From: Terriglobia bacterium
Lineage (GTDB): Bacteria > Acidobacteriota > Terriglobia > JAIQFV01
Reading direction: 5' to 3'
Assembly: GCA_020073085.1 (NCBI GenBank)
Contig: JAIQFV010000008.1
Span: 124,001-188,000, forward strand
DNA length: 64,000 nucleotides
Shown: piece by piece, positions 5,121-38,852 of the stretch
Layout of the letters: each line of letters opens with the position of its first letter
Position numbering within the stretch: the stretch's first letter is position 1
Position numbers and translations under genes: made by a program
The notes under the pieces: generated by a model
Databases searched by the model: none
Seen by the model: the letters and a program-made list of their open reading frames with translations, nothing else
Told to the model about the DNA's origin: nothing

Positions 5121-6166
5121 GTGAAGAGAAGAGAGTCCCCCTTGAAGACAGCCTCTGGGCCCGTCAAGACACGGCCGAGACGGCCGCCCGTTTGTCCCGA
5201 AGCATTTCTGATTCAGTGACGAAGGAATTACCGAAAGGCCTCACGGAACCGCAGTTCAAGCGCCTGAAAAAGGAACTTCTGGCCTCCCTCGAAAAGGAAA
5301 TGATCCTTGAAAGCCGGAGGGTCATCCGCCTCTTCCTGGAAGAGGAAGAGGCACAACAAAAGCATTTGGAGAAGAGGCGGAAGCGAAAGGCCCTCTTCGA
5401 AGAGTCCGTGGAGCGGATCAGTTTGAATCAGCGTGGCCAGCACATGATCTTACTCACCTGTACCCTGCTGCTGATCATCACCGGGCTGCCCATCAAGTTT
5501 CACGAGGCGCCCGCCGCTGAATTCATCATTCACCTCCTGGGCGGACCGAACATCACCCGTGTCCTGCATCGAATCGGCGCGATTGGGCTCACCATCGTTG
5601 GGCTCTATCATCTCTGGTACTGCATGGCCTTTGAAGAAGGGCGCCGGAATTTCGGGCTGTTGCTGCCGTCTCCGCGGGACCTCAAGGATTTTCTCCAACA
5701 GATGGGGTATTACCTCGGTCTCAAGAAAGACCGGCCGTTGTTTGATCGATTCTCGTACATCGAGAAATTTGACTATTGGGCGGTTTACTGGGGGATGGTG
5801 GTGATGATCACCTCGGGTTACATCCTGTGGTTCATGGAGACGGCCATCAACCAGTTCGGCAAGGTCGCCTATGACATTGCCCGGGAGGCCCATTCCGATG
5901 AAGGGTTACTGGCCACCCTCGCGATTATCATCTGGCATTTTTACAACGTCCATTTCAACCCCAAGAAATTTCCGGGAAGTCTGACGTGGTGGCATGGACG
6001 AATTCCGATTGAGGAATTCCGCGAAGAGCATCCGATCGAGTACGAGCGGTGGCTTGAAGCACAGAAACAAGAGGAGACTGAAATGGAGCAGGGATCCGAA
6101 GGGATTCCGGGTAGTCGATCGGTATCGGGCGGAAAAGAGAAGCCAGAGGGAGGAAGCTCCTCATGA
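5117..6166 (+). CDS. diheme-type cytochrome b with long charged N-terminal extension
   Basis: 349 residues. Residues 1 to about 95 form a charged, helical, probably coiled-coil cytosolic extension (for example KRLKKELLASLEKEM and FLEEEEAQQKHLEKRRKRK) that the paralogue at 3286 lacks. Four helices of the HydC/FdnI-like fold follow, with candidate ligands in RGQHMILL, IKFHEAP, VLHRIGAIG, LYHLWY and WHFYNVHFNPKKFP. The C-terminal tail EEFREEHPIEYERW is shared with the truncated protein at the window start. It overlaps the nonaheme gene before it and the large cytochrome after it by ATGA. Likely the membrane quinol-oxidising subunit of the second cytochrome b/c module. The extension might dock a cytosolic partner; nothing in the sequence identifies one. 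Confidence 0.9.
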   Translation: MSEEKRVPLEDSLWARQDTAETAARLSRSISDSVTKELPKGLTEPQFKRLKKELLASLEKEMILESRRVIRLFLEEEEAQQKHLEKRRKRKALFEESVERISLNQRGQHMILLTCTLLLIITGLPIKFHEAPAAEFIIHLLGGPNITRVLHRIGAIGLTIVGLYHLWYCMAFEEGRRNFGLLLPSPRDLKDFLQQMGYYLGLKKDRPLFDRFSYIEKFDYWAVYWGMVVMITSGYILWFMETAINQFGKVAYDIAREAHSDEGLLATLAIIIWHFYNVHFNPKKFPGSLTWWHGRIPIEEFREEHPIEYERWLEAQKQEETEMEQGSEGIPGSRSVSGGKEKPEGGSSS

Positions 6167-8202: not shown

Positions 8203-8218
8203 CAAGAAGCTGAATCCT

Positions 8219-9646
8219 ATGTTGAAGCCCAATCGTGAAACCACCATACTGATCATTGACGATGAAAAACCGATCCGCGAATCCCTCCATCGCACCCTTC
8301 GCCAGGAGGAATACCAGGTGAGGCTGGCCGAAAATGGCGACCAGGGACTGCGTTTTCTTGAAGCCGAACGGATTGATCTGGCGGTCGTCGACATGGTCCT
8401 TCCTGACTGGAACGGGGTCGATCTGCTGAAAAAGATTAAGAGCGAGTGGCCCGAAGTTGAAGTCGTCCTGGTGACGGCTTACGGCACGATTGAGACAGCC
8501 GTCGAGGCGATGAAATACGGGGCCTATGACTTTTTGACGAAACCCTTCAAACAGGCCCAGATTCTGAACGCCATCAAGAAGGCCCTGGAAAAGTTTGAAC
8601 TCGAAAAAGAAAACCGTCTGCTCAAGGAACAATTAAGCGAGCAGACGATCAATCGTAAGCTGGTCGGCAGCTCCCCTGAAATGATGCGGCTGAAGAAGAT
8701 GATCCAGCAGGTCGCCCCCAGTTCCGCCACCGTCTTTATTCAGGGGGAAAGCGGGACCGGCAAGGAGATCGTGGCGGAAACGATTCATTACTTGAGCGCG
8801 CGCGCTGACCGCCCGGTGGTCAAGGTGAATTGTGCCGCCCTGCCGGAGACGTTGCTGGAGGCGGAATTGTTTGGATACGAGAAAGGCGCCTTCACGGGAG
8901 CCTTTGCCCGCAAGGAAGGCCGCTTCGACCTCGCTCGGGGCGGGACGCTCTTCCTGGATGAAATCGGCGACATGCCCCTGGCCACACAAGTCAAACTCCT
9001 GCGGGTGTTGCAGGACGGCACTTACGAACGGCTCGGGGGGACGGAAACTCTCGATGCCGATGTCCGCATTATCGCTGCAACCCACCACGATCTCGAGCAA
9101 GACGTCAAGGCAAAGCGCTTTCGGGAGGATCTTTATTACCGCATCAACGTCATTGCGTTGAAGATTCCCCCGCTCCGTGAACGCACGGACGAGATCCCGA
9201 TCCTGGCGAACCATTTCCTGAAAATCTACTCGACGAAGAACGGGAAAAAGGTCACCGGCTTCACGGAATCAGCCATCAACGCCCTGACCGGCTACGAGTG
9301 GCCAGGAAATGTGAGGCAGCTCGAAAACGTGGTGGAACGGGCTGTCGTTTTGACGGAAACCGAGGTGATCACTCCGGCGGTTCTTCCCCGGGAGATTTCC
9401 GGGGTCAAATCTCAAATTGAGTTGGAATCCAACCGAGCCCCGGTGTTGACCATTTCCTTTCCCATTGGGACTTCGATGGACGACATCGAAAACCGCGTCA
9501 TCCATTCCATCCTCGAGTACACCCAAGGCAACAAACAACGGGCCGCCCAACTGCTCAACCTGGCAAGCAAGACCATTCACCGGCGTCTTGTCGCTGAAAA
9601 CTCCACGGAGGGGGCGGAGGCAGATGCGGCCGAAGACTCTCCCTGA
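8219..9646 (+). CDS. NtrC-family sigma-54 activator (response regulator)
   Basis: 475 residues from ATG 8219. Receiver domain at residues 8-125 with acidic pocket D14/D15, phospho-acceptor D58 (VVDMVLPDWNG), T in VTAYG and K in TKPF. AAA+ domain at about 145-385 with Walker A GESGTGKE, the sigma-54 contact loop GAFTGA, Walker B GGTLFLDEIGD and the R-finger region. The C-terminal Fis-type helix-turn-helix is within GNKQRAAQLLNLASKTIHRR. It activates transcription only from -24/-12 promoters with sigma-54. It ends the cytochrome operon that contains the heme-bearing histidine kinase, so the two probably form one two-component system. Candidate targets in this window are the sigma-54-like promoters at 15341 and 19060. 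The frame stays open upstream into the cytochrome gene, but similarity to the family begins here. Confidence 0.95.
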   Translation: MLKPNRETTILIIDDEKPIRESLHRTLRQEEYQVRLAENGDQGLRFLEAERIDLAVVDMVLPDWNGVDLLKKIKSEWPEVEVVLVTAYGTIETAVEAMKYGAYDFLTKPFKQAQILNAIKKALEKFELEKENRLLKEQLSEQTINRKLVGSSPEMMRLKKMIQQVAPSSATVFIQGESGTGKEIVAETIHYLSARADRPVVKVNCAALPETLLEAELFGYEKGAFTGAFARKEGRFDLARGGTLFLDEIGDMPLATQVKLLRVLQDGTYERLGGTETLDADVRIIAATHHDLEQDVKAKRFREDLYYRINVIALKIPPLRERTDEIPILANHFLKIYSTKNGKKVTGFTESAINALTGYEWPGNVRQLENVVERAVVLTETEVITPAVLPREISGVKSQIELESNRAPVLTISFPIGTSMDDIENRVIHSILEYTQGNKQRAAQLLNLASKTIHRRLVAENSTEGAEADAAEDSP

Positions 9647-9740
9647 TGCCCGCCCATCTTTTAACGTTCTCACACCGCCCTGATAAGTCAGCCACGTCCC
9701 CCTCGAGGCCGCCATTCTCGCATACCGCAAGCTCCGAAGC

Positions 9741-9764
9741 CGGATGAGGGGCTGTGCCCCGTCC
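9741..9764. terminator. possible bidirectional terminator hairpin
   Basis: GGGGC-TGT-GCCCC (9748-9760) is a perfect 5-bp stem with a 3-base loop, extended weakly by GGA/TCC. It lies in the 124-bp gap between two convergent genes. No U-tract follows on either side, so it may not work as an intrinsic terminator. The rest of the gap shows nothing. Confidence 0.25.
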
Positions 9765-9770
9765 GCACTG

Positions 9771-11108
9771 CTATTCAACGACGTCCTTTAGACCCGAGGT
9801 CCAGTCCTGTACTGTCTTGCTCGGCAACCGGAACACCGTGCGGGAGCTTCGAATCCACACCGAATCCTTTTCGGACTTGCTGAACCGGATCTCGGATTGA
9901 TGATTGGACCGATCCACCAGGGTCACGCGCACCGCGGGTTTGAAAAACAGGCCGACCTTCTCCAGGCTCGCAGGGGGATCCAGAATCTCGTCCGCCTTCA
10001 TCTCCTCCAGTGGTAACCAGAATTTCCAATCTCGCGCTTGCTTTCCAGCCAGAGTCTTCGGAAGGACTACCTTCCATTTGGAATCCTTTGTATCCTCCCT
10101 GTCAAATTCATAGACGCTGTTTTCCAACTGGATCAGGACATGTTGAAGGTCGGCCGCCTTTGTGGTGATGATCTGCTTGTCACGGAGCTTAAACACGACA
10201 GGCCGGATCTTATCGGCGACAATGGTAGTGATCTTAAAGATTGCAGAAGACCCCTCAAGCCTGGCATACACCTGGTCATCTTTTCTTGCGCCCAGCAAGA
10301 GTTTCTTTTGCTTCGCCTGGCTTCCCTCCCTTTCCGTAAGGGTCAAAGTCCCCGCCGGAGGATCCAACTCGAAACTCTTCAGAGTGGATTCAGGCTTGTC
10401 TACAAATTCAGAGGCTTCACTGCTTGAAGCATCATTGAGGTAAGAAGAAATTCCGCTCGGATCACCCCGTGCGGACACAGGTTGGATCAGGTTCCATTCC
10501 GTCCCTGACTTCCGTGCGCTGAAGTGTTCCCCGTTGGAGACAAAATCTATCTGGGTGACCTTCTCGGGATCCACCTCCATGATCCTGCGATCACGAAGTT
10601 GCATCAACGACTTGTCCAATGAGGAGAAAAGGTAGGAAGAAACGAGGACCACATCAGCCCGGGACGAGGTTCGCGCGTAGACATTGTTCTCCGAGAAATC
10701 CTTCTCGCCCAGATCCACTGAGAACGAAGTCCCCGGCCGGGTTTTGAATTCGGTGTGGATCTTTGGTGGCTGAAGACCATACTCAGAGAGGTTCTGCGCG
10801 CCGGCCACGGAGTGGGTGCTCGTGGCGGAGGAGAGGTTGCGAACAATCTCATTGACGACCGTCTGATCGGCCGGGGCTGAGACGGGCGACTCAATCACCC
10901 ATCGGCTATTCTGTTGTTCAAGAATCGTTTTTTCACTGCCGCGTTGGATCAGCAGTGAAGCGACGGCCTCGTCTTTGACATCAAAGAGCTTCTCTGCCTT
11001 TTGCCTGGCCTGCTCGCGATTTGCTTCTCCCCGGAACTCATAAAAATATACAAATCCACCGAGCCCGGCGAGGATCACGACTCCAATGATCAGATTGCGC
11101 CATTTCAT
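9771..11108 (-). CDS. DUF4340-like protein of Gld-type ABC cluster
   Basis: 445 residues from the ATG at 11108, chosen because GGGAAGGA precedes it and a membrane helix starts right after (LIIGVVILAGLGGFVYFY). The remainder is extracytoplasmic, rich in beta-strand-like segments, with internal duplication: phrases of the type LLIQRGSEKTILEQQNSRW, IDFVSNGEHFSARKSGTEW and VLIQLENSVYEFDREDTKD recur. This is the pattern of DUF4340 proteins, which are found at the end of GldA/GldF/GldG-type ABC operons. The molecular role is unknown; an accessory or scaffold part of the exporter is the usual guess. It is separated from the gldG-like gene by a 286-bp spacer filled with heptad repeats, which is unusual for this otherwise tight operon. 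Confidence 0.8.
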   Translation of the reverse strand: MKWRNLIIGVVILAGLGGFVYFYEFRGEANREQARQKAEKLFDVKDEAVASLLIQRGSEKTILEQQNSRWVIESPVSAPADQTVVNEIVRNLSSATSTHSVAGAQNLSEYGLQPPKIHTEFKTRPGTSFSVDLGEKDFSENNVYARTSSRADVVLVSSYLFSSLDKSLMQLRDRRIMEVDPEKVTQIDFVSNGEHFSARKSGTEWNLIQPVSARGDPSGISSYLNDASSSEASEFVDKPESTLKSFELDPPAGTLTLTEREGSQAKQKKLLLGARKDDQVYARLEGSSAIFKITTIVADKIRPVVFKLRDKQIITTKAADLQHVLIQLENSVYEFDREDTKDSKWKVVLPKTLAGKQARDWKFWLPLEEMKADEILDPPASLEKVGLFFKPAVRVTLVDRSNHQSEIRFSKSEKDSVWIRSSRTVFRLPSKTVQDWTSGLKDVVE

Positions 11109-11149
11109 CAATGCAGTCCTTCCCTTTAAGATAACCTGGAAAGAGGGAT

Positions 11150-11394
11150 TAGGTGATAGGTGATTGGGAATAGGCAACACGGGATGGTGATAGGAAGCAA
11201 GGGCAAAGCAAACCAGATGGTAGCGGGAGTGGGGTTTTCAGATTCCCCGCGCCGAACCGCGGGCAGGATCAACATTGGAAACATTCTCATCCTGCCGACT
11301 GCCACGATCCTGTGATTCCTCGCACCTCCCTGACACCTAACGCCCGTCACCTATTCCCTATCCCCTATTCCCTATCACCTAATACCTATCCCCG
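11150..11394. repeat. inverted pair of TAGGTGA-type heptad repeats
   Basis: The left arm (11150-11177) reads as in-phase 7-mers TAGGTGA, TAGGTGA, TTGGGAA, TAGGCAA. The right arm (about 11331-11394), read on the minus strand, gives TAGGTAT, TAGGTGA, TAGGGAA, TAGGGGA, TAGGGAA, TAGGTGA, CGGGCGT, TAGGTGT. The arms face each other and can pair over about 23 bases with three mismatches, leaving roughly 150 bases between them. The right arm ends at the stop codon of the gldG-like gene, so the element lies within the operon spacer. A second element of the same design is at 20760-20982. Confidence 0.75.
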
Positions 11395-12948
11395 TCACTT
11401 CCTCCGTCGTGCCCAGACCATGGCGCCCGTCAGAAGCGCCGAGGCGGGCAGCACAATAATGATGAACCAGAACAACAACTGGCCGGTTGAAGCGGAGAGT
11501 TCCACACGGCGGTTGTCGGCATTCCTTGGCCGGATCGACACGAGGTCCTCATCCTCGGCCAGCCAGCTGACCGAATTCAGGAAAAGATCCCCATTGCGCT
11601 GAAGCCGAAAAAACTCATTCGAGGCAAATCGCGAATTCCCGATGACCTCGACTCGCGCCTCCTTGGTCCGCGTCGATTGCTCTTTCGATCCAGCGGCCGA
11701 CCGGGTGGAGACGACGGCCAGGGAGAGCGGCCCTTCGAGGTCCTTGCCCTTATCGAATTTCAGAGGCCTCTCATTGAGGTTGCTTTCACCCCAACTGTTC
11801 GTCGAAGTTTTGAACAATGGGGCGGATGAGAAATCCGATTTTGTATCGGCCACGCGAACGGAGCGAGCCAGCGGGAAGATGGTCATGGTTCTTCCAAAGT
11901 CCTTCACGATGGGTTGATTCTCATACTCGGTCACAATGGGCGCCGCCGGTCCCATCCCGAGGAGCTGTCCAATCCCACTGGCGTCCACGACGGCATCATT
12001 ATCGACCTGGATCTTCCATTTTTCGAACTCGCGGGTCAGCCCGGGATCGGTGTCCGGATCCACGAGCACCAGAACCTTCCCTCCCGCCTCGACATACTGA
12101 TTGATCTCATCCGCTTCGGGTTGAAACAGCGAGTATTTCGGACCGGCAATGACAAGCACGGTACAATCCGGGGGAACGGATTTGGATTGGGTCAAGTTTA
12201 TCGGTTTCACTTCATAACCCTGATCTTCAAGGCCTTTCTTTGCCCCCGAAAACCCGGGCCCGCCGGCTGAAGTGATTGACGCCTCCCCATGGCCTTCGGT
12301 GAAATAGATGGTGCGCTTTTTGCGGTGCGTCAACTTGACGATGGCATTCGTCAAGTCTTCCTCCGCCGGATTGGTGACCAGCTGTTTCTGGTCGGGGTTA
12401 TTGCCTGACAGGACAACGATCGTCGGCAGGGAGCGCACGCTGTATTGGCGGGCTTGCGCCAGGTATTTTTCAGCGTCCAAAAACTCGTACTTGATCCGGG
12501 ATGACTGCGCCTGGTATTCACGGATCAGGTCTCGAACCGGATGCGATTCGGTCTGATCGAAATAAATCAATCGCACGTCGCTGTCGAGATTCTTTAGCAC
12601 CTTAATCGTCTGTTCGGAGATGCTGAAGAGCTTGTTCGTGGTGAGGTCGTACCGTTTATGATGCCGGGAGCCCAGAAAATTAATGAGGCCGAGGATGGTC
12701 AGAAAAACCGCCACGGTGGCCAGCGTATTGGCCCCGTACTGAGTGGATCGGTGTTGCCAGCCGGCCAGTAGTTCCCGGTAATGGAAAACCAGATGAAATA
12801 TCAAAAGCGCCCCGCCGACACCGGACGTCGTCCACACGGTCCAGTCGAAGACGGAATGAGCGGAATAGAGAACCGCCCCCAGGGCCAGGATCAGCAGGCC
12901 GAGCCCTCCGGCCGGCTTGCTCAGACGCTTCACAAGGGGATCAGCCAT
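11395..12948 (-). CDS. GldG-like ABC transport auxiliary protein
   Basis: 517 residues. Two helices come first (GLGLLILALGAVLYSAHSVF; GALLIFHLVFHYRELL), a third helix follows at about 72-92 (TLATVAVFLTILGLINFLG), then a large extracytoplasmic domain and a closing helix (LLFWFIIIVLPASALLTGA) with a basic end. The domain has the GldG/IFT52-like features DLTTNKLFSISEQTIKVLKNLDSDVRLIYF near its start (residues about 104-133) and ILVLVDPD-like and VLVIAGP segments later. In Bacteroidetes GldG works with GldA and GldF in gliding; in other phyla the same trio is common without gliding. Its start lies 3 bases after the permease stop. Predicted accessory subunit of the ABC-2 exporter. Confidence 0.85.
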   Translation of the reverse strand: MADPLVKRLSKPAGGLGLLILALGAVLYSAHSVFDWTVWTTSGVGGALLIFHLVFHYRELLAGWQHRSTQYGANTLATVAVFLTILGLINFLGSRHHKRYDLTTNKLFSISEQTIKVLKNLDSDVRLIYFDQTESHPVRDLIREYQAQSSRIKYEFLDAEKYLAQARQYSVRSLPTIVVLSGNNPDQKQLVTNPAEEDLTNAIVKLTHRKKRTIYFTEGHGEASITSAGGPGFSGAKKGLEDQGYEVKPINLTQSKSVPPDCTVLVIAGPKYSLFQPEADEINQYVEAGGKVLVLVDPDTDPGLTREFEKWKIQVDNDAVVDASGIGQLLGMGPAAPIVTEYENQPIVKDFGRTMTIFPLARSVRVADTKSDFSSAPLFKTSTNSWGESNLNERPLKFDKGKDLEGPLSLAVVSTRSAAGSKEQSTRTKEARVEVIGNSRFASNEFFRLQRNGDLFLNSVSWLAEDEDLVSIRPRNADNRRVELSASTGQLLFWFIIIVLPASALLTGAMVWARRRK

Positions 12949-12951
12949 GCG

Positions 12952-13740
12952 CTATTGCCTCCATCTCATCGATTCGAACGATCGCAGGGTTAACAGCAAT
13001 GCGAATGCCGTGAAACTCAAATAGAAAATGATGTGGGTGGTGTCAATCACCCCTTTCGAAAAATCATCAAAATGATTCAGGACTGAAAGATAGCTCAGCA
13101 CGTCCCCCAACTTGGAATCGCCGGAATGGGTGGCAAAGTCCAACACCCAGAGGATCAGAAACACTCCGAAGGTACTGACCGACGCAATTATCTGGTTCTC
13201 GGTCAGGGTCGAAATGAATGCCCCCAGGGCGATCAGGGAGCCTCCCAGCAGCAGGACGCCCAGGTATCCACTGAAAACAGGAGCCCAAGGGAACCGGGGC
13301 TGGCTGTAGGCCTGCATCAGCAGAAAGTAAAGCAGGGTCGGCGCGAGCATTGACATGAAAAAAGCCACGGAAGCCAGAAATTTTCCGAGCACAATTTGGA
13401 CGCTCGTCAAGGGGGACGTCAGTAACAATTCGATGGTCCCCTGTTTCTTCTCCTCCGTAAACAAACCCATGGTGGTCATAGGGAGCATGAACAAGAGGAT
13501 CGTGGAGAGGGTTTCAAAGAAATTCCGGGTCACCACCGACGGTACGTCAATGGGCGGCATCCCTCCACCAAATTGCTGGGATTGCATCGCCGCCATCATG
13601 GAATTCTGAACGATCAACCTGAGGATATTGTAGAAAAAGAACCCCATCACCAACAGAAAGATGGTGCTGACGACATAGGCAATCGGGGACACAAAATAGT
13701 TCGAATACTCCCGCTCTAAAATTGCCCAGATGTTCTTCAT
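12952..13740 (-). CDS. ABC-2 type permease, GldF-like
   Basis: 262 residues from ATG 13740; the upstream codons to 13773 lack family similarity and a site GAAGAGGAGCAC lies just before this ATG. Six hydrophobic segments are visible, including YVVSTIFLLVMGFFFY, LSTILLFMLPMTTMGLF, FLASVAFFMSMLAPTLLYFL, VLLLGGSLIALGAFIS and ASVSTFGVFLILWVLDFA. The cytosolic loop EEKKQGTIELLLTSPLTSVQIVLGK (positions about 101-125) is the conserved coupling segment of ABC-2 permeases such as GldF and NosY. It should form the membrane channel of the exporter with the ATPase encoded upstream. Substrate unknown. Confidence 0.88.
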   Translation of the reverse strand: MKNIWAILEREYSNYFVSPIAYVVSTIFLLVMGFFFYNILRLIVQNSMMAAMQSQQFGGGMPPIDVPSVVTRNFFETLSTILLFMLPMTTMGLFTEEKKQGTIELLLTSPLTSVQIVLGKFLASVAFFMSMLAPTLLYFLLMQAYSQPRFPWAPVFSGYLGVLLLGGSLIALGAFISTLTENQIIASVSTFGVFLILWVLDFATHSGDSKLGDVLSYLSVLNHFDDFSKGVIDTTHIIFYLSFTAFALLLTLRSFESMRWRQ

Positions 13741-13817
13741 GTGCTCCTCTTCCCTCCCTTTCCGGCACCGCAATTTCCCAATGCTCTGTTACCGGGCTGT
13801 GACCCCGGTCCCGCCTG

Positions 13818-14849
13818 TCATGACTCCGGCGCATCCGCCTCGCCGGTCTCGGCATCTGGCGCAGGCGGAGCCTCCGAGGCCGCATCCATTTCCTGCTCGG
13901 AGGTGGTGAGTTGCAGGAAGATATCTTCCAGACTCATTGACACCGGACGCAACGACCATAACTCCGCGCCACTCTCCAGCACCGCCCGGGCCACTGCGTT
14001 TCTTACGGAGCGATCTGTCGAAACCTCCAGCGTTAATTCGTGCGCTCCACCCCCGTTCAACGGCTTCGAGGCCATCTCGAGGACTCCGGGAAGGGATAGA
14101 ATACGACTTTTGACCGCATCGAGCTGCCCCTTGATCTCCACAATCAGGCGGTCCCCTCCCCGCAGCTGGAGCGTCAGATTCTCCGGGGTGTCCTCGGCAA
14201 CGATCTTTCCCTTGTTAATGATGACGACCCGGTGGCAGGTCATGGAGACTTCGGGGAGAATGTGAGTGGAGAGGATGACCGTATGGGTTCCGGCCAGGCT
14301 CTTGATCAACTCGCGCACTTCAATAATCTGTTTGGGATCCAACCCCACGGTCGGTTCATCCAGGATGAGAATCCTGGGATCATGAATCAAGGCCTGCGCC
14401 AGTCCCACGCGTTGACGGTACCCCTTGGAGAGGTGCTTGATCAGCCGGTGGCGATAATCCCCGCCATCCTGCGGAGCGTCCACCAGACGGCATTTCGCGA
14501 GAATCTCTTCCACTCTGCGGGGACGGTCGGCCGCAGAGATTCCTTTTATTTTTGCCACAAAGTGAAGGTAACCTTCCACCGTCATTTCACCATAAAGGGG
14601 AGGGTTCTCGGGGAGATACCCGATGAGACGGCGCGTGTCAAGCGATTGCGTGAGAATGTCGAGTCCTTCAATTCGCGCTGTCCCGGCCGTGGGAGGAATG
14701 TAGCCCGTCAAGATCCTCATGGTCGTGGTCTTCCCTGCCGCATTGGGACCGAGAAACCCCAGGATCTCCCCGTCCTTCACATCAAAGGAAATATCGATCA
14801 CAGCGTCTTTTGTGCCGTAACGTTTGGAGATATGATCCACTTCAATCAC
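13818..14849 (-). CDS. ABC transporter ATP-binding protein, GldA-like
   Basis: 343 residues. Walker A is GPNAAGKTTT, Q-loop region GYLPENPPLYGEMTV, signature LSKGYRQRVGLAQ, Walker B ILILDEPTVGLD and H-loop ILSTHILPEV. The first 230 residues are a standard ABC domain. The C-terminal 110 residues are a DrrA/GldA-like extension ending in an acidic, Ala-rich tail (SEAPPAPDAETGEADAPES). It is the first gene of the minus-strand operon ATPase-permease-GldG-DUF4340. It powers export by the ABC-2 permease at 12952. The divergent 552-bp region upstream separates it from the second respiratory locus. Confidence 0.93.
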   Translation of the reverse strand: MIEVDHISKRYGTKDAVIDISFDVKDGEILGFLGPNAAGKTTTMRILTGYIPPTAGTARIEGLDILTQSLDTRRLIGYLPENPPLYGEMTVEGYLHFVAKIKGISAADRPRRVEEILAKCRLVDAPQDGGDYRHRLIKHLSKGYRQRVGLAQALIHDPRILILDEPTVGLDPKQIIEVRELIKSLAGTHTVILSTHILPEVSMTCHRVVIINKGKIVAEDTPENLTLQLRGGDRLIVEIKGQLDAVKSRILSLPGVLEMASKPLNGGGAHELTLEVSTDRSVRNAVARAVLESGAELWSLRPVSMSLEDIFLQLTTSEQEMDAASEAPPAPDAETGEADAPES

Positions 14850-15245: not shown

Positions 15246-15340
15246 GTGAATGCGGACTCTAAACATGCCACAAAGATAATACTCATTTAACTATTTTATT
15301 ATTAGTAATATACAAGGAAACTGAGTCCGGCATCTGATTT

Positions 15341-15355
15341 TGGCTTTGAGCTTGC
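15341..15355 (+). promoter_or_regulatory. candidate sigma-54 (-24/-12) promoter
   Basis: TGGCTTTGAGCTTGC keeps both conserved blocks of the sigma-54 consensus, TGGC and TTGC, at the exact 15-base span. Transcription would begin near 15366, leaving about 36 bases to the ATG at 15402. An NtrC-type activator is encoded at 8219 in the same window. Confidence 0.55.
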
Positions 15356-15401
15356 GCCTCTCTTGGGTGTGCAGAGGGTATTGGAGAGAAATGAGGCTCC
15401 C

Positions 15402-15803
15402 ATGTCAGACCGAACAACAATTAGAAACTTTTGGATGGTTTTCATCGCGTGCCTGGCGCTGGTGGTCATTGTCATGGCCATTGTCAGCGCGTCCCTGCAG
15501 ATCGGCACGGTAGAGGAAACCAGTCCGGGCGGTGTTCGGGCGACTATCCCCGCCCATACACCCTTGGAGCCAGCGACCAAATCGATTCCATGGCACGAGC
15601 GTGCAACGGGTTGGTTGATTTGGTTTGTGCTGACCGTCATCCTCAGCGGACGTTTTATTCTCCTGTTAGGCGTCCTGCTGTTCTACGGATTTATCATTGC
15701 CTACATTGCTCCCAACGCCTGGCAAAGAATCAAGGCCCGTTTGTGGGGGAAGGCGGCCGATGTGGCCCCTCAGAAAGCAGTGGTTCCCCGCAAGCAGAAG
15801 TAG
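15402..15803 (+). CDS. small two-helix membrane protein, first gene of respiratory operon
   Basis: 133 residues from ATG 15402 (GAGG six bases upstream). Helix 1 is at about 12-34 (FIACLALVVIVMAIVSASL). A soluble stretch of about 45 residues follows, with HTPLEPATKSIPWHERAT. Helices near 68-100 (WLIWFVLTVILSGRFILLLGVLLFYGFIIAYI) may count as one or two spans, and a basic tail ends the protein. No family was recognised. It lies just downstream of the candidate sigma-54 promoter and 84 bases before the GcvH-like gene, which like it has an N-terminal helix. It may be a small subunit of the FeS/NrfD complex that follows; this is inferred from context alone. Confidence 0.65.
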   Translation: MSDRTTIRNFWMVFIACLALVVIVMAIVSASLQIGTVEETSPGGVRATIPAHTPLEPATKSIPWHERATGWLIWFVLTVILSGRFILLLGVLLFYGFIIAYIAPNAWQRIKARLWGKAADVAPQKAVVPRKQK

Positions 15804-15887: not shown

Positions 15888-16619
15888 ATGGTTGCAATCT
15901 TCGTAGTCCTGACCATCATCGCCTTCCTTTTAGTCGATTACGTTGTGCAGAGGGTCCAGGCACGACGAGCAAGTTCAGGCACGCCATCCCCCAAGGCCTT
16001 GGCCCCGGAGGTGAATCCGGGTGAAGCCTTTGTGCGCCTGGGGGATTCAATTGCCGTGCCCGCCGCCTTTTTCTTTCACCGCGGACATACCTGGATCAGG
16101 TTCTCCTCTCCTAACCGTGCCCGGGTCGGGCTGGACGATTTCGCCCAGAGGGTTCTGGGTCGCATTGAGGCCATCCAATTCCCCCGGATCGGGGAACTGA
16201 TTCGCCAGGGCGATCCCATCTTCATGGTTCGCGTGGGTGATCGCAAGCTTTTCCTTCCTGCCCCGAGCGATGGCATTGTGACCCATATCAACACCGATTT
16301 GGCCGCGACACCCGGTGCGGTTCATGTCAGTCCGTTTGAAAGCGGTTGGGTCTGCGAAATGAAGCCTGAGAACGTCTCGCAGAACGTTTCCGAGCTGCTG
16401 TCGGGAGAGGACGCCGTGCAGTGGGAATTGCACGAGCTGAACCGCTTACAGAAATTCATCGCCGACCGGAAGGATGGAAACCCGGTCGCCACTACGGAAG
16501 AGTTCTCCTTGGGTCGTCCCTGGGCTGCGGAGTGCGCGCCGAAGGTCTTGAACGAATTCTCGAAGTCGTTTTTTACTCTCGATCTTGAACACAGCGAGCT
16601 TGTGACGGAGGTTTCTTAA
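15888..16619 (+). CDS. membrane-anchored GcvH-like protein lacking the lipoyl lysine
   Basis: 243 residues from ATG 15888 (AAAGGA seven bases upstream). Helix at about 2-21 (AIFVVLTIIAFLLVDYVVQ), linker, then a GcvH fold at about 60-165. HRGHTWIRF matches the HEWIR entry of true GcvH, and VGLDDFAQRVLGRIEAIQFP matches [20 protein letters not shown] of the gcvH product at 38457. The lipoylation segment differs: VGDRKLFLPAPSDGIV replaces ESVKAVSEIYCPVAGEV, and the modified lysine aligns with Arg or a gap. It therefore cannot be a normal glycine cleavage carrier. The C-terminal 75 residues have no known match. The gene ends 1 base before the ferredoxin gene, so it probably belongs to that redox complex. 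Role unknown. Confidence 0.8.
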   Translation: MVAIFVVLTIIAFLLVDYVVQRVQARRASSGTPSPKALAPEVNPGEAFVRLGDSIAVPAAFFFHRGHTWIRFSSPNRARVGLDDFAQRVLGRIEAIQFPRIGELIRQGDPIFMVRVGDRKLFLPAPSDGIVTHINTDLAATPGAVHVSPFESGWVCEMKPENVSQNVSELLSGEDAVQWELHELNRLQKFIADRKDGNPVATTEEFSLGRPWAAECAPKVLNEFSKSFFTLDLEHSELVTEVS

Positions 16620-16620
16620 C

Positions 16621-17373
16621 ATGTCAAAAGGACTCCTCATCGATATCACAAAATGCATTGGCTGCCGTTCGTGCGAGGCGGCATGCAAGGCACAGAATAA
16701 ACTCCCCGAAAACAATGATTCTGATTTGACAGCCACCACCTATACCAAGGTGATGGAGCGCGGGGATCATTTTGTTCGCAAGATGTGCATGCACTGCCAG
16801 AACCCGACCTGCGTTTCGGTTTGTCCGGTGGGGGCCCTGCAAAAAACGAGCTACGGGCCGGTGGTCTACGACGAATCCAAGTGCATGGGCTGCCGCTACT
16901 GCATGGCGGCTTGCCCGTTCCAGGTTCCGCGCTACGAATGGTCGAGCGCGTTTCCCCGCGTGCGGAAATGCATCATGTGCAAGGACCGGGTCGCCCAGGG
17001 TCTGCAAACCGCTTGCGCCGAAGCTTGTCCTGTGGGGGCCACAACGTTCGGTGAGCGGGATGACCTCATCCACGAGGCCCAGGACCGGATTCGCCAGGAG
17101 CCGGGAAAGTACGTCAACCAGGTTTACGGTTTCTCGGAAGTGGGGGGAACCGGCGTTTTGTTCATCACTGACGTTCCCTTCGAAAAGCTCGGGTTCCGGA
17201 CCGACTTGTTGAAGGAGCCCTATCCGATGCTGACCTGGAACGTCCTCTCAAAAATCCCCAATTTGGTGGGGGTGGGTGCGACGCTGCTCTTTGGAATTTG
17301 GTGGATTACCAGCCGCCGGGAAGAAGTGAAAAAAGAAGAGGCGGAAGCGAAGGCCCAGAACGATAAAATCTAG
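16621..17373 (+). CDS. 4x[4Fe-4S] ferredoxin subunit with C-terminal anchor (HybA/DmsB-like)
   Basis: 250 residues. Four cysteine clusters total 16 Cys: CIGCRSCEAAC, CMHCQNPTCVSVCP, CMGCRYCMAACP and CIMCKDRVAQGLQTACAEACP, the pattern of DmsB/HybA/PsrB electron-transfer subunits. The C-terminus has a helix (IPNLVGVGATLLFGIWWIT) followed by a charged tail, as in HybA. No Tat signal is seen at the N-terminus (MSKGLLIDITKCIGC), so the clusters could sit on the cytosolic side. The next gene encodes the NrfD/HybB membrane partner. Together they would move electrons between the quinone pool and Fe-S clusters. No molybdopterin or hydrogenase catalytic subunit is present nearby. Confidence 0.9.
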   Translation: MSKGLLIDITKCIGCRSCEAACKAQNKLPENNDSDLTATTYTKVMERGDHFVRKMCMHCQNPTCVSVCPVGALQKTSYGPVVYDESKCMGCRYCMAACPFQVPRYEWSSAFPRVRKCIMCKDRVAQGLQTACAEACPVGATTFGERDDLIHEAQDRIRQEPGKYVNQVYGFSEVGGTGVLFITDVPFEKLGFRTDLLKEPYPMLTWNVLSKIPNLVGVGATLLFGIWWITSRREEVKKEEAEAKAQNDKI

Positions 17374-17459: not shown

Positions 17460-18677
17460 ATGAATCTCAGTCGCTCGCGAATTCCAAGGATCACCTTTTG
17501 GAGGGCGGTTGTGGCCGTCTTCATGATCCTGGGGGCCTATGCGCTGTTTGTCCGGTACACCCGTGGCCTGGGAGCCGCAAGCAACATGACCGACCTCTTC
17601 CCCTGGGGGCTGTGGATCGGTTTTGACCTCCTTTGTGGAGTGGGACTGGCCGCCGGGGGCTTCACCATCTGTGCCGCTGTCTATATTTTCAATGTGGAGC
17701 GCTTCCGTCCTATCATTCGCCCCACCATCCTGACCGCCTTCCTGGGATACCTGCTGGTGATCACCGCCTTGCTCGTGGATCTCGGCAGGCCGTATCGCAT
17801 CTGGCATGCCCTCGTGATGTGGAATCCGCATTCAGTCATGTTTGAGGTGGCGTGGTGCGTGATGCTCTACACGACAGTCCTGGCCCTCGAGTTTAGTCCC
17901 ATCGTTTTTGAGAAATTCAAACTGGAAGGACCTTTAAAGATCATCCACAAAATCTCCATCCCGCTCGTGATCCTGGGAGTCATTCTCTCCACGTTGCATC
18001 AGTCCTCTCTGGGATCCCTCTACTTGATCATGCCCACCAAGCTTCACCCGCTGTGGTATTCACCCATCCTGCCGATCTTCTTTTTTGTGTCGGCGGTGGC
18101 GGTAGGGTTGTGCATGACCATTTTTGAGTCGTATCTCAGCAACCGCGCCTTCAAAAAGAAACTCGAAATGGATCTGCTTGCGGACCTCGGAAAGATTGCG
18201 GTCGTCGTCCTCGCCGTCCTGTTCGTCCTGAAGGTGCAGGATCTCCAATACCGTCATGTCTGGGGTTACCTGTTCCAACCCACCCAGGAGGCCATTCTGT
18301 ACTGGACCGAAGTCACCATGGGGATCATCGCGCCGATGGTGCTGTTGATGTTCCGCCGGGTTCGTTATCACAACTTCGGACTGTTTGCTTCGGCCGTGTT
18401 GGTGCTCCTCGGGTTTGTCATGAACCGGCTGAATGTCTCGATTACTGGAATGACCCGTGGATCGATGACCACCTACTTTCCCAGTTTTCTGGAAATCATG
18501 GTGACGGTGATGATCGTATCGCTCGGATTCGTCATCTTCTCCCAAGCTTCCCGATTCTTCCCGATCTTCGCCGATTCAAAGGAAGAAGCAGGAAACGCTT
18601 TCGCCCCTCCTGTCCTCGAGGCGGATCGAAGCCAGTCGTTTGCGGATCGTCCCAGCTATGCCCGGTCCCGCCGCTGA
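17460..18677 (+). CDS. NrfD/HybB-type integral membrane quinone-interacting subunit
   Basis: 405 residues from ATG 17460, with GAAAGGAAA upstream; in-frame codons back to 17400 are not hydrophobic and lack an RBS. Eight to ten helices are visible, beginning FWRAVVAVFMILGAYALFVRY and including WGLWIGFDLLCGVGLAAGGF, a conserved segment of the NrfD/PsrC/HybB family. Other typical features are LLVDLGRPYRIWHALVMWNP and LHQSSLGSLYLIMPTKLHPLW. The family has no cofactor and exchanges electrons with quinones through the adjacent ferredoxin subunit. It closes the first block of this locus; a 580-bp spacer with its own sigma-54-like promoter follows. Confidence 0.93.
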   Translation: MNLSRSRIPRITFWRAVVAVFMILGAYALFVRYTRGLGAASNMTDLFPWGLWIGFDLLCGVGLAAGGFTICAAVYIFNVERFRPIIRPTILTAFLGYLLVITALLVDLGRPYRIWHALVMWNPHSVMFEVAWCVMLYTTVLALEFSPIVFEKFKLEGPLKIIHKISIPLVILGVILSTLHQSSLGSLYLIMPTKLHPLWYSPILPIFFFVSAVAVGLCMTIFESYLSNRAFKKKLEMDLLADLGKIAVVVLAVLFVLKVQDLQYRHVWGYLFQPTQEAILYWTEVTMGIIAPMVLLMFRRVRYHNFGLFASAVLVLLGFVMNRLNVSITGMTRGSMTTYFPSFLEIMVTVMIVSLGFVIFSQASRFFPIFADSKEEAGNAFAPPVLEADRSQSFADRPSYARSRR

Positions 18678-19257: not shown

Positions 19258-20757
19258 ATGGTCAGTATAAATCCCCCGGATCCTGATTCCTCTATTCTGC
19301 ACAAGGTCTGGTTTGGCATTCTGCATTTCCTCCTCACCATCGGGAGTCACTGGTTGAGCCTGTGGGGGGCGGTCACCTGTACGGTGACAGCAGTGTTCAT
19401 TATCATGATGTTCCTGCTGGACGCCATCGGGTACTTTCACAACCCATACGCTGGTATTATCGCCTTCGTGGTCCTTCCGAGTATCTTTGTGGCAGGACTC
19501 GTAGTCATCCCCCTTGGCATCCATCAGTCGAACCGGAAGAGGAGACAGCAACGGGCGAATGGAGAGGTGGAGGCGGAGCGCTTTCCTCGCCTCGATTTCA
19601 ACGACGCCCGCGTCCGCCATGTAATTTCCGTCTTCGGTTTTATCACTCTCGCCAACATTCTCATCCTGGCCGTCGTCAGTTACAAGGGCGTGCAGCACAT
19701 GGACTCTTCGGAGTTTTGTGGTCAAACCTGCCATACCGTGATGACCCCCGAATTCACTGCCTATGAGCGGTCCCCGCACTCGCGCGTCGAGTGCGTCAAC
19801 TGTCATATCGGGCCGGGTGCCTCCTGGTTTGTGAAGTCGAAACTCTCCGGATCCTATCAGGTGTATGCCGTCACCTTTAATCGGTTTCCCCGCCCCATTC
19901 CGACTCCCATCGAGAATTTGCGGCCGTCACGTGAAACCTGCGAGCAGTGTCACTGGCCTGAAAAATTTATCGGGAACCGTATTGTTGTGAAAACCAAGTT
20001 TTCTGAGGACGAGGCCAACACGCCCTTAAAGACCATTCTCGTGATCAAGGTGGGGGGGGGACATCTTCAGAGCGGCAACGCGGGAGGCATTCACTGGTGG
20101 CACATGTACAGCCAGAACAAGATCACTTATATTCCCGCAGACAAGCAAAGGCAGCAAATCCCCTGGGTTCAACTGACCGACCCCCAGGGCAAGGTCACGA
20201 CCTTCGTGGCAGCCGACTCCAAAATGACCGCCGACGAATTGTCAAAGATCCCTTTGCGAACGATGGATTGCATCGATTGTCATAACCGGCCGACCCACAT
20301 TTACAAGATGCCGGGACCCGCCATTGACGAAGTCATGCTGGTAAAAAAAGTGGACCCCTCCCTTCCTTTCATCAAGAAGCAGGCGCTCCAGCTCCTGACC
20401 CAGGAGTATCCGACCCAGCAGGCGGCGCGGGAAGCGATCAAATCAGGTCTTGAAAATTTTTACCGCACCAATTATCCTCAGATCTTTTCCACCCAGCAGG
20501 AGGCGATCGGAAAATCCATCGCCGCGCTCCAACAAGTCTATTCGACCAACGTGTTTCCCGAAATGAGGATAGTCTGGGGGACCTATCCCAACAACATTGG
20601 GCACCAGGACTTTCCGGGTTGCTGGCGATGCCATGATGACAATCACATCAGCGCCGATGGGCGGAAGATCCCGCAGGATTGTTCCACCTGTCACGATCTG
20701 CTGGCCACCGACGAGGCCAATCCAAAGGTTCTGCCCGATCTGTTGACTGGATTTTGA
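19258..20757 (+). CDS. NapC/NirT-type hexaheme cytochrome c
   Basis: About 499 residues from ATG 19258; the upstream in-frame stretch to 19039 has no protein-like character. Three hydrophobic segments come first (WGAVTCTVTAVFIIMMFLL; AGIIAFVVLPSIFVAGLVVI; ISVFGFITLANILILAVVSY). The heme domain follows with CGQTCHTVM (CX3CH), CVNCH, CEQCH, CIDCH, CWRCH and CSTCH: six sites, the first one non-standard. RSPHSRVECVNCHIGPG is typical of NapC/NrfH-like quinol dehydrogenases. The region between the third and fourth sites is long (about 105 residues). Probably feeds quinol electrons to a periplasmic partner, possibly the nonaheme protein at 22564. RBS is weak (GAAGAAGG, about 13 bases upstream). Confidence 0.86.
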   Translation: MVSINPPDPDSSILHKVWFGILHFLLTIGSHWLSLWGAVTCTVTAVFIIMMFLLDAIGYFHNPYAGIIAFVVLPSIFVAGLVVIPLGIHQSNRKRRQQRANGEVEAERFPRLDFNDARVRHVISVFGFITLANILILAVVSYKGVQHMDSSEFCGQTCHTVMTPEFTAYERSPHSRVECVNCHIGPGASWFVKSKLSGSYQVYAVTFNRFPRPIPTPIENLRPSRETCEQCHWPEKFIGNRIVVKTKFSEDEANTPLKTILVIKVGGGHLQSGNAGGIHWWHMYSQNKITYIPADKQRQQIPWVQLTDPQGKVTTFVAADSKMTADELSKIPLRTMDCIDCHNRPTHIYKMPGPAIDEVMLVKKVDPSLPFIKKQALQLLTQEYPTQQAAREAIKSGLENFYRTNYPQIFSTQQEAIGKSIAALQQVYSTNVFPEMRIVWGTYPNNIGHQDFPGCWRCHDDNHISADGRKIPQDCSTCHDLLATDEANPKVLPDLLTGF

Positions 20758-20759
20758 AC

Positions 20760-20982
20760 TAGGTGTTAGGTAATAGGTGATAGGTGCTAGGTGCTAGATT
20801 TCAGTTGTTGGCCATGACCGAGCTGAGGACACTCTCAAAAATGATGCCAAATCGACGGCCCACAATTTCAATTGCGAAGTTCGGTTGAGAATTGCTGAGT
20901 TTCCTCTTCGCATCCAAGCAAAGTGACCGATCGCCGCTCGATAGGAACTGATACCTATCACCTAACACCTATTCCCTATTCC
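20760..20982. repeat. second inverted pair of TAGGTGA-type heptad repeats
   Basis: The left arm, 20760-20794, is five in-phase heptamers: TAGGTGT, TAGGTAA, TAGGTGA, TAGGTGC, TAGGTGC. The right arm, 20951-20982, read on the minus strand gives TAGGGAA, TAGGTGT, TAGGTGA, TAGGTAT. TAGGTGTTAGGT is identical in both arms, so they can pair over about 20 bases with two mismatches. The element begins 2 bases after the cytochrome stop codon and ends just before the RBS of the Rieske gene. The 150 bases between the arms show no gene. Confidence 0.75.
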
Positions 20983-21000
20983 GAACCACGGAGGCGTTTC

Positions 21001-21462
21001 TTGAACACTCAACCGACGCAGGGAACATCTTCCACCGCAACACCTCGCCGCTCTTTTCTCAACTTTCTGCTCTCGACCTCTATCGGCGCGTCCATCGTCG
21101 CGATTTTCTATCCCGTGATGAAGTATCTCACTCCCCCCAAGACGGGTGAACCCGCGACCGCCAGCGTGGTGATTGCGAAGGGGGGCGAACTCAAGAACAA
21201 CTCCGGTCAGATTTTCAAATTTGGCAGCAAGCCGGGCATCCTGGTACGGACCCCGGACGGCGAGTTTCGGGCCTTCTCCGCGATCTGCACTCACCTGGAA
21301 TGCACGGTTCAGTACAAGAAGGAGACCTCTCAGATCTGGTGCGCTTGCCATAACGGAATGTATGATCTCTCCGGCAGAAACGTGAGCGGCCCTCCTCCCA
21401 GACCGTTGGAAACATTCAAAGTCAACTTGCGCGGTGAAGACGTGGTTGTCTCGAAAGGATGA
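21001..21462 (+). CDS. Rieske [2Fe-2S] protein of bc-type complex
   Basis: 153 residues if translation starts at TTG 21001, which has GGAGG six bases upstream; no ATG is available nearby. A Tat-like start ([11 protein letters not shown]) runs into the membrane anchor ([18 protein letters not shown]). The Rieske box is complete: CTHLEC and CACHNGMYD provide two Cys and two His ligands plus the disulfide pair, and the following [12 protein letters not shown] is the Pro loop. It accepts the first electron of quinol oxidation at the cytochrome b Qo site and passes it to a c-type cytochrome. Its stop overlaps the region of the cytochrome b start. Confidence 0.93.
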
Positions 21463-21464
21463 TC

Positions 21465-22562
21465 ATGGCCAGAGGAAAAGGACTTTCAACAGCGCTCTAT
21501 GAATGGATCGACGAACGGGTTCAATTGGAAAGCCTGATCCATTTCATGTCCAAGAAAGCGGTCCCTCAACATCGCCATTCCGTCTGGTATTACTTCGGAG
21601 GCATGACCCTCTTTCTCTTTTTTGTCCAGGTGGGGACAGGTATTCTTCTGACCATGTATTATCGTCCCAGCGCCGAAGAGGCCTATGAGAGTGTCCAGTT
21701 CATCATGACGGAGGTCCGGTTTGGATGGTTGATCCGGTCCATCCACAGCTGGTCCGCCAATCTGATGATCGCCACCATGTTCATTCACCTGTTCAGCGTT
21801 TACTTCCTGAAATCTTACCGCAAACCCCGGGAATTGACCTGGGTCACGGGATTCGGGCTTTTCGCCCTGGTGTTGGCATTCGGCTTTTCCGGGTATCTCC
21901 TGCCCTGGAATGAACTCTCCTTTTTCGCAACAAAGGTGGGAACAGAGATTGCCGGGATCGTTCCCTTCGTGGGTAAGTTCATGGTCCGCCTCCTGCGTGG
22001 AGGGGATGATGTCACCGGGGCGACTCTCTCCCGGTTTTACGGTTTCCACATCGCCATCCTTCCCGGCCTTGTCACCCTGATTCTGACCATCCATGTGGTG
22101 CTGGTGCAACGCCTCGGCATGAGTGTCCCCATCGGGGTCGAGAAAGCGGCAGAGACGGGGCAGAAACCCGTCCGCGACGTGCCCTTTTTCCCCAATTTCT
22201 TCCTGCATGACCTCCTCGGATGGTACGTGGTTATTGCCGTGCTGGCCGCCCTGGCGGCGCTCATGCCCTGGGAGTTGGGAAAGAAGGCGGACCCCTTTGC
22301 TCCGGCCCCCGCCGGCATCCGGCCCGAGTGGTACTTCGTTTATATGTTCCAAACGCTCAAGTTCATTCCCGCAAAGATCCTGGGCCTGGACGGCGAAGTG
22401 CTCGGGATCATGGCCTTCGGAGTTGGCGGACTGTTCCTTCTGCTTGTCCCCTTTCTTGATCGCGACCCCGCGCATCACCGCAGGACACGCTTGTTCTCGG
22501 GCATCGGCGTTTTCATCGTCATTTACATCATCGTCTTGACCATTGTTGGCTACCGGGTGTGA
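21465..22562 (+). CDS. cytochrome b of bc-type complex, single polypeptide
   Basis: 365 residues. ATG 21465 is preferred to 21459 because AAAGGA would directly abut the latter. Heme ligands are paired as in all bc complexes: H in [19 protein letters not shown] and in [19 protein letters not shown]. The Qo-site motif PEWY is present ([15 protein letters not shown]). The N-terminal half matches cytochrome b6, and the C-terminal three to four helices match subunit IV, so it is a fused but short b6f-like form. It lies between the Rieske gene and a nonaheme cytochrome and lacks a cytochrome c1 or f gene. It oxidises (mena)quinol and bifurcates electrons. Confidence 0.94.
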
Positions 22563-22563
22563 C

Positions 22564-23841
22564 ATGACCTCAAAATCAAAATGGATTGCACGGGCGGGAT
22601 TCTGGGGAACCCTTTGCCTCAGCTTACTGATCCCCCACCTCACATTTGCACAGGCCAAGCAGAATACCTGCTTGGATTGCCATTCCGCGCTCGAAGGGAA
22701 TCTGCAGGTCACTGCCGAGAAGTGGGCCACTGATATTCACATGGTCAAGGGGTTCACGTGTGCCGACTGCCATGGAGGAGACCCTGCGCAGATGGATGAC
22801 AAGCTGGCGATGAATCGGGCGAAGGGCTTCGTAGGAGCACCGAAAGGCCTGGCCATCGTTCAGATGTGCGGAAAATGTCACAGCGATGCGGCATTCATGA
22901 AGAAATACAACCCGGCGGAGCGTGTGGACCAGGTGAGCGAGTACTTCACCAGTGTTCATGGAAAGAGATTACAGGGTGGGGACATCAACGTGGCCACCTG
23001 CGTCAGCTGCCATGGAGTTCACGAGATTCGCCTGGTGAGCGATCCTCGCGCCCGGGTGTACCCGTTGAATGTGGCGGACACTTGTGGCGTGTGCCACAGC
23101 AACGCTCAGCTCATGGCCCCCTATCACATCAAGACCAACCAGAAAGAGGAATTCCAGAAGAGCGTTCACTACGAGGCGCTGGTGAAGAAGGGGGACCTCT
23201 CCGCCCCGACCTGTAACAAGTGTCACGGGAATCACGGCGCGACTCCCCCGGGCATTGGATCGGTCGCGAACGTGTGCGGCCAGTGCCACGCGGTGTTTGC
23301 CGATCTGTTTGACAAAAGTCCTCACAAGGCGGCCTTCGCGAAGATGGATCTTCCTTCGTGCGTCCATTGTCACGGAAATCACGAGATCAAGAAACCGACC
23401 GATGACATGCTGGGGGTCGCCGATGGAGCGTTGTGCGTGCAGTGCCATGTCGCCGGCGAAGCAGGTTACCAGCAGGCGGCCTCCATGAGGAAAGGAATCG
23501 ATCAATTGAAGGTGGCCCTGGCCGGCTCCGAATCTCTGATCACTCAGGCGGAGCAAAAAGGGATGGAGGTCAGCCAGCCCAAATACGATTTAATCGAGGG
23601 ACGCCAGGATCTGACCAAGGCACGGACCCAGGTTCATTCCTTTAATGCGGCCAATGTGGAGAGTGATGTGAAGGAGGGCTTGAAAATCGCGGTCCGGACT
23701 GAAGAGAAAGGGAAACAGGTTCTCTCGGAATATCAATTCCGCCGCAAGGGTCTTGCGGTTTCCTTGATCATTATTCTGGCGGTGATTGTCACGCTCTATT
23801 TCAAGATCAAGGATATTGAACACCGCCAAAAGGCAGAATAA
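22564..23841 (+). CDS. nonaheme cytochrome c partner of the bc-type complex
   Basis: 425 residues from ATG 22564, one base after the cytochrome b stop; no strong RBS, so coupling is likely. A signal peptide (GFWGTLCLSLLIPHLTFAQA) precedes nine CxxCH sites (CLDCH, CADCH, CGKCH, CVSCH, CGVCH, CNKCH, CGQCH, CVHCH, CVQCH). A heme-free helical region of about 100 residues follows (LKVALAGSESLITQAEQKG and LIEGRQDLTKARTQVHSF), then a C-terminal anchor (GLAVSLIIILAVIVTLYF). It takes the place of cytochrome c1 in the Rieske/cytochrome b operon. It probably passes electrons from the Rieske centre to periplasmic carriers; this is inferred from gene order. Confidence 0.9.
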   Translation: MTSKSKWIARAGFWGTLCLSLLIPHLTFAQAKQNTCLDCHSALEGNLQVTAEKWATDIHMVKGFTCADCHGGDPAQMDDKLAMNRAKGFVGAPKGLAIVQMCGKCHSDAAFMKKYNPAERVDQVSEYFTSVHGKRLQGGDINVATCVSCHGVHEIRLVSDPRARVYPLNVADTCGVCHSNAQLMAPYHIKTNQKEEFQKSVHYEALVKKGDLSAPTCNKCHGNHGATPPGIGSVANVCGQCHAVFADLFDKSPHKAAFAKMDLPSCVHCHGNHEIKKPTDDMLGVADGALCVQCHVAGEAGYQQAASMRKGIDQLKVALAGSESLITQAEQKGMEVSQPKYDLIEGRQDLTKARTQVHSFNAANVESDVKEGLKIAVRTEEKGKQVLSEYQFRRKGLAVSLIIILAVIVTLYFKIKDIEHRQKAE

Positions 23842-37160: not shown

Positions 37161-37191
37161 TTCGTTGCTAGATTTCACCAGGAACAACACT

Positions 37192-38456: not shown

Positions 38457-38852
38457 ATGAGCAAGTATCCAGAAGACTGCTTATATACGAAGGAACACGA
38501 ATGGATTCGTGTGAACGGGAAGACGGGAGTTGTCGGGATCACCCACTACGCACAAAAACAACTGGGGGACATCGTGTTCGTTGAACTGCCGAAGGTCGGC
38601 GATCACTTCGACACCAACGAGTCGTTCGGCACAGTCGAGTCCGTCAAAGCCGTCTCGGAAATCTATTGTCCCGTGGCCGGTGAAGTAACGGAGATCAACG
38701 AGGCGGTGGTGAATTCTCCGGAGACGCTGAACAGCGATCCCCATGGGGACGCCTGGTTGATTGAGATAAAAATTAAGAACCCCCCGGATCTGGAGGATCT
38801 CATGTCGGCGGAGGAGTACGATGAATACATCCACGACGAGGCCGCCGAATAA
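38457..38852 (+). CDS. gcvH: glycine cleavage H protein (lipoyl carrier)
   Basis: 131 residues. YTKEHEWIRVNGKTGVVGIT begins the fold, and the lipoylation site is intact in FGTVESVKAVSEIYCPVAGE (the Lys of ESVKA). GAGGA precedes the ATG by about five bases. The stop TAA overlaps the start of gcvPA (TAATG). It carries the aminomethyl group between the P and T proteins. It is the reference for the lipoyl-less GcvH-like protein at 15888. The 152-base gap after gcvT contains no feature that was recognised. Confidence 0.96.
   Translation: MSKYPEDCLYTKEHEWIRVNGKTGVVGITHYAQKQLGDIVFVELPKVGDHFDTNESFGTVESVKAVSEIYCPVAGEVTEINEAVVNSPETLNSDPHGDAWLIEIKIKNPPDLEDLMSAEEYDEYIHDEAAE

Follow-up and report, generated by a model that had tools for sequence, protein, structure and literature searches.

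A membrane-anchored, lysine-less GcvH-like protein associated with NrfD redox modules and heme-based regulators in Acidobacteriota

In Acidobacteriota and in a second phylum, an H-protein fold that has lost its cofactor site and acquired a membrane anchor is a conserved companion of NrfD modules and heme-based regulators. H-proteins are textbook swinging-arm carriers, and the respiration of Acidobacteriota, a major group of soil bacteria, is still poorly understood. In many Acidobacteriota, a protein with the fold but without the arm is linked to NrfD redox modules and to regulation based on heme; this yields a named, testable six-gene system, and an automatic 'GcvH' annotation would mislead for the whole lysine-less family. 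The member studied here, P0001, is encoded in a 64,000-nucleotide stretch of DNA from a Terriglobia bacterium that was analysed as a whole and is referred to as the window. With a probability of roughly 0.5, we consider P0001 to be a non-lipoylated cytoplasmic subunit with an H-fold that couples a putative NrfD quinone-oxidoreductase module to a c-heme kinase and a sigma-54 regulator.

A preliminary description of the gene had assigned a GcvH fold and a membrane anchor to its product, and both assignments hold. Pfam places GCV_H (PF01597) at residues 64–178 of P0001 with 70.2 bits (cut-off 22.2), H-proteins are the sole matches at credible E-values among PDB sequences (top value 3.6e-15), and the AlphaFold model, calculated with 77 input sequences (pLDDT 85, pTM 0.75), matches the H-protein from Thermus (1onl) with a TM-score (TMt) of 0.92. 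In the Foldseek search, H-proteins were matched over the whole length and ranked first by a wide margin; a generic lipoyl-like barrel of the RnfC/NqrA type was therefore rejected as the family. The predicted structure of a second, central family member gave the same H-protein match, and both models contain a long helix C-terminal of the H-domain. Residues 2–27 of P0001 form a predicted N-terminal membrane helix (mean pLDDT 95–97 over residues 1–20), and a hydrophobic N-terminal anchor is present in 81 of 83 members. The alignment of the relatives begins at the methionine encoded at 15888, which was taken as the start rather than 15855. According to Pfam, P0001 contains neither a receiver nor a kinase domain, while a receiver domain (PF00072) is present in fused relatives.

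With GcvH (PF01597, TIGR00527), the protein shares the whole fold and the motifs H-x-W, VGxDDFA, P-x-G and DPYGxGW, but it differs in the absence of the lipoyl lysine, the N-terminal anchor, a helical C-terminal extension and its gene neighbours, and with 65 bits it fails the TIGR00527 equivalog cut-off of 115.85. NF045810 (GcvH_rel_desulf) and TIGR03077 (not_gcvH) are, like P0001, relatives of GcvH that are distinct from it; P0001 attains 27.6 bits against a cut-off of 150 for the former and 31.5 bits against a cut-off of 144 for the latter, and other members of the family are likewise far below both. As no model reaches its cut-off, the known NCBIfam GcvH-related families were dismissed as an identity for the protein.

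The lack of the carrier lysine, pointed out earlier for this single gene, proved to be a trait of the family. In P0001, an aspartate aligns with the lipoyl lysine of the true GcvH of the same genome (ESVKAV), and none of the 84 members of a first survey has lysine at this position, which is occupied by glycine in 79 cases, by aspartate in four and by asparagine in one. Since the lysine is absent from all relatives too, its loss through a sequencing error or a wrong reading frame was excluded. Across the 84 members, no conserved residue suited for attachment was found at the turn, and the alignments of the family revealed no conserved cysteine. Newly fixed positions comprise W-[IV]-R-Q-G-Q-K, an arginine two residues before the turn, and MVSP-x-EG. 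When 84,980 species genomes were scanned with six central members as query, the best 80 of 197 relatives were kept, and all of these except one stem from genomes titled Acidobacteriota or groups inside Acidobacteriota. For the second phylum, that of a genome titled Ca. Eisenbacteria, 47 genomes were searched. Divergent members from both phyla likewise lack lysine at the lipoyl column, with the exception of a second copy in L150, which shows lysine there in a locally shifted alignment. In a tree of 58 lysine-less and 20 lysine-bearing domains, a single branch supported by an SH-aLRT value of 97% sets all lysine-less domains apart; the inner forks of this tree, built on few columns, are unsure. 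A phylum-wide count of 119 among 247 genomes includes true GcvH and is not usable as prevalence. A plasmid search returned distant matches, mostly annotated as gcvH or unannotated, none of which covered more than 80% of the query.

Table 1. Features in the window (positions as numbered in the window).
Feature	Position	Strand	Remarks
Sigma-54-type -24/-12 site TTGGCTTTGAGCTTGCG	15340..15356	+	62 bp before the first operon gene, P0005
P0005, small membrane protein	15402..15803	+	first gene of the operon; no family match
P0001, membrane-anchored lipoyl-less GcvH-like protein, 243 aa	15888..16619	+	Pfam, alignment, AlphaFold, selection
HmcB/HybA-like Fe-S protein	16621..17373	+	no Tat signal; C-terminal hydrophobic segment
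HmcC-like NrfD, integral membrane quinone-interacting subunit	17460..18677	+	NF045714, PF03916
NapC/NirT-type multiheme cytochrome c	19258..20757	+	Pfam; same place in close relatives
Rieske Fe-S protein	20923..21462	+	Pfam; relatives
Cytochrome b (b/b6 type)	21459..22562	+	Pfam; relatives
Membrane multiheme cytochrome c (c7/c3-like)	22543..23841	+	Pfam; relatives
gcvT	37132-38304		adjoins genuine gcvH
Genuine lipoyl-type gcvH	38457..38852	+	159.9 bits vs cut-off 115.85 (ESVKAV; also 152 bits)
gcvP	38852-41718		adjoins genuine gcvH

The coordinates (Table 1) and the HmcB/HmcC scores confirm that the stop codon of P0001 is followed after a single base by the gene for a HybA-like ferredoxin and then by nrfD, as had been noted before. 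The NrfD protein scores 335 bits with NF045714, which is below the cut-off of 550, and 101 bits with PF03916. P0005 is known only from the window's own family. From this gene to the last cytochrome, the entire operon is kept in the relative G001 and, up to the contig end, in G002; in the window's lineage, the GcvH-like/Fe-S/NrfD triad has become part of one operon with Rieske, cytochrome b and multiheme cytochrome genes. No hdr-like genes were recognised among the genes examined around P0001. Divergent from the operon, positions 9771–14849 encode an ABC transporter with ABC_transp_aux (GldG-like) and DUF4340 proteins, a block that stays beside the operon in G001 and G002 as well.

The order of GcvH-like, HmcB-like Fe-S and HmcC-like NrfD genes was also sought in other genomes, and the linkage on which the earlier proposal hinged is conserved in two phyla: 42 of 80 loci from named genomes contain all three genes in this order on the same strand. 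In 21 further loci the Fe-S/NrfD pair, whole or in part, is located elsewhere in the locus, mostly in divergent orientation, and it is absent from 17, several of which are at contig ends. Three further genes usually complete the cassette; they encode a histidine kinase carrying the c-type heme motif CxxCH, a protease of the archaemetzincin type (M54) and a sigma-54 response regulator. Among the 80 loci, the kinase occurs in 61 and the protease in 53, the CxxCH motif is present in 57 of 62 cassette kinases, and the M54 peptidase constantly accompanies the kinase/regulator pair (L038, L081, L089 and others). The same cassette occurs in the second phylum. Neither of the two observations named earlier as refuting the proposal, a lysine retained at the lipoyl position of orthologues or a lack of conserved linkage to the ferredoxin-NrfD pair, was made. 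The 'respiratory operon' named at the outset is not the sole setting of the family, as most loci add kinase, sigma-54 regulator and protease; in the window, the kinase/protease cassette does not adjoin P0001. In many loci two or three GcvH-like genes flank nrfD genes, and in several Acidobacteriales the gene is solitary. When 13 genomes without the linked pair were tested, 11 held an HmcC-like NrfD elsewhere. In two genomes, L081 and L082, a search at E<=1e-40 found no HmcC-like NrfD, yet the GcvH-like gene is retained there along with the genes for kinase, regulator and protease; this favours a regulatory role, although the absence is suggestive only, given that the assemblies may be incomplete.

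Sigma-54-type promoter sites are a recurrent feature of the family. A strict sigma-54 pattern gave few sites, and the looser GG-N10-GC spacing, combined with random-window controls, was decisive: 64 of 79 loci (37/46 and 27/33) contain it within 300 bp upstream of the GcvH-like gene, compared with 18% and 12% of windows drawn at random from these loci. These sites are nearly always positioned 40–80 bp before the gene, and they also precede solo copies (L091, L097, L098 and L103). In G001 and G002, a site similar to that in the window lies 59–61 bp before the same gene (distances counted by hand). A sigma-54-class regulator is encoded in the window at ~8.0–9.6 kb and is a possible regulator of the TTGGCTTTGAGCTTGCG promoter. 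In the operon at positions 400–9646, genes for several multiheme cytochromes and for b-type membrane proteins are accompanied by those for a CxxCH sensor kinase and a sigma-54 response regulator.

Several genomes encode a fusion of anchor, receiver (PF00072) and GcvH-like domain after the Fe-S, NrfD and kinase genes. Receiver domains are phosphorylated in the cytoplasm, and because the fused receiver works there, the part behind the anchor, and with it the GcvH-like domain, should reside on the cytoplasmic side. The charge bias after the helix agrees, as lysine plus arginine exceed aspartate plus glutamate behind the anchor in 85% of members. For the Fe-S protein of the module, sequence features argue for a cytoplasmic location as well, because 60 of 61 such proteins lack a Tat-like motif, which is present in one; in 58 of the 61 the start directly precedes the first cluster motif. 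The charges behind its C-terminal hydrophobic segment point the other way, since positive charges follow this segment just as they do in the periplasmic HybA.

In the mechanism that we propose, a single N-terminal helix would anchor the protein, and the globular H-domain, carrying no cofactor, would sit in the cytoplasm at the cytoplasmic face of the HmcB/HmcC-like (Fe-S plus NrfD) module. Gene linkage suggests that the two physically dock, possibly via the face that bears the lipoyl arm in GcvH and now displays a conserved RQG / R-D-G / MVSP-x-EG surface. The subunit would couple the redox module to the c-heme sensor kinase and the sigma-54 regulator, which in turn would switch the operon on; we infer this direction of signalling between redox module and regulators. 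The earlier proposal of a 'structural or redox subunit' survives in its first half: context supports a structural or regulatory role, whereas a redox role is unlikely because there is no conserved lysine or cysteine. The anchor-receiver-GcvH fusions, the regulators in the cassette and the gene content of L081 and L082 speak for regulatory coupling over a purely structural or redox subunit. More tentatively, the heme-c kinase may phosphorylate the receiver-GcvH-like protein, or act via a separate subunit, and the domain may bind and switch the NrfD oxidoreductase. If true, a former lipoyl carrier would subject a respiratory module to two-component control at the post-translational level, and the system is a candidate for such control exerted directly on a quinone oxidoreductase. 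Given the receiver fusions and the NrfD-less genomes, the GcvH-like domain may primarily serve signalling.

The receiver-GcvH-like fusions, the two genomes without a detected HmcC-like NrfD and the sigma-54-type sites in front of solo copies would also fit a pure signalling adaptor, i.e., a partner or output of the heme kinase/regulator pair that stays outside the NrfD complex, with Fe-S protein and NrfD merely forming the regulated enzyme. We regard this as doubtful, as the gene is one of the redox operon's own genes both in the window and in Qrc-like loci of relatives, and as the two or three copies that flank nrfD genes in many loci are subunit-like. These copies, together with the receiver fusion, are hard to reconcile with a chaperone, and we consider it rather improbable that the protein assists only transiently in the assembly or maturation of the Fe-S/NrfD module and is absent from the finished enzyme, even though a membrane anchor, the first position in the triad, the lack of a cofactor site and faster evolution than its partners would suit such a factor. 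The rates in question are a dN/dS of 0.14 for P0001 against two relatives, which is clearly purifying, and of 0.03–0.09 and 0.05–0.09 for the Fe-S and NrfD proteins in the same test. The faster evolution is what a regulatory or peripheral subunit would show, but a loosely bound one would show it too.

Two further explanations concern the lost lysine itself. An ordinary lipoyl carrier is impossible because the residue is absent, but lipoate or another group could conceivably be attached to a shifted lysine or a cysteine; the H-protein fold is fully kept, and 33 of the 84 members have a lysine two residues past the lipoyl position. With a turn devoid of a conserved attachment residue, glycine at its tip in nearly all members and no conserved cysteine, we judge this very improbable. 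That P0001 is a decaying, functionless gcvH duplicate, as the lost lysine might suggest, has practically no probability left: the dN/dS value excludes a pseudogene, and the newly conserved motifs, the widely kept linkage and the single well-supported branch refute decay as well. Coupling between redox module and regulators remains our preferred reading.

Lysine-free relatives of the lipoyl fold are found inside redox complexes as the barrel-sandwich domains of NqrA, RnfC and cytochrome f. Similarity to NqrA is remote (PF05896 with 17.5 bits in one fusion; E-value of 0.08 for an NqrA chain in the structure search). Alternative complex III is an NrfD complex in which ActD (DUF3341) forms a cytoplasmic domain anchored to the membrane; the likeness drawn here concerns position only. 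As in Hmc, HybAB and Qrc modules, an Fe-S dicluster protein is encoded beside NrfD in the window, and the two score as HmcB/HmcC-like, but they stay below the cut-offs of these models, and the Fe-S protein is devoid of a Tat signal. To our knowledge, no GcvH-like subunit has been described in these modules. Lysine-free lipoyl folds in redox systems therefore have precedent, but as far as we can tell there is none for an H-protein family in this role alongside NrfD and a two-component system. In agreement with the initial statement that a role in an NrfD complex is not described, the open-access literature searched contained no relevant paper on GcvH or GcvH-like proteins with NrfD, on archaemetzincin with NrfD or on a link between GcvH and receivers. 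Among published GcvH relatives recruited into electron transfer, the closest is LbpA of the sHdr sulfur-oxidation system, which keeps its lipoate lysine in 95 of 95 aligned proteins and has Hdr-like subunits, not NrfD, as neighbours (PMC6067878). P0001 differs from it in both respects.

The window's genome encodes five GCV_H proteins. The separate true gcvH that had been recognised at 38457 is indeed present, and linkage to gcvT and gcvP belongs to this copy and not to P0001. Elsewhere in the genome (L006, 6677–17285), two lysine-less GcvH-like genes flank a Qrc-like operon for a cytochrome, a molybdopterin protein, an Fe-S protein and NrfD, an arrangement also seen in relatives. This operon adjoins a convergent kinase/regulator/M54-protease cluster. 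A lysine-bearing GcvH-like protein (ETMKIT; L007, 9725–10183) is encoded in an apparent arsenic operon of the same genome, and the gene run at 9725–10614 contains ArsR-, ACR3-type permease- and ArsC-like genes followed by two short unnamed proteins. Among the GcvH-like proteins from other loci, those of L144, L154, L155, L157, L158, L177, L178, L184 and L185 exhibit a cysteine-rich N-terminal motif (C-x-W-M...C...C-x-x-C), to which Pfam gave no name in the one protein scanned; it is possibly a metal site and is repeated in some of these proteins.
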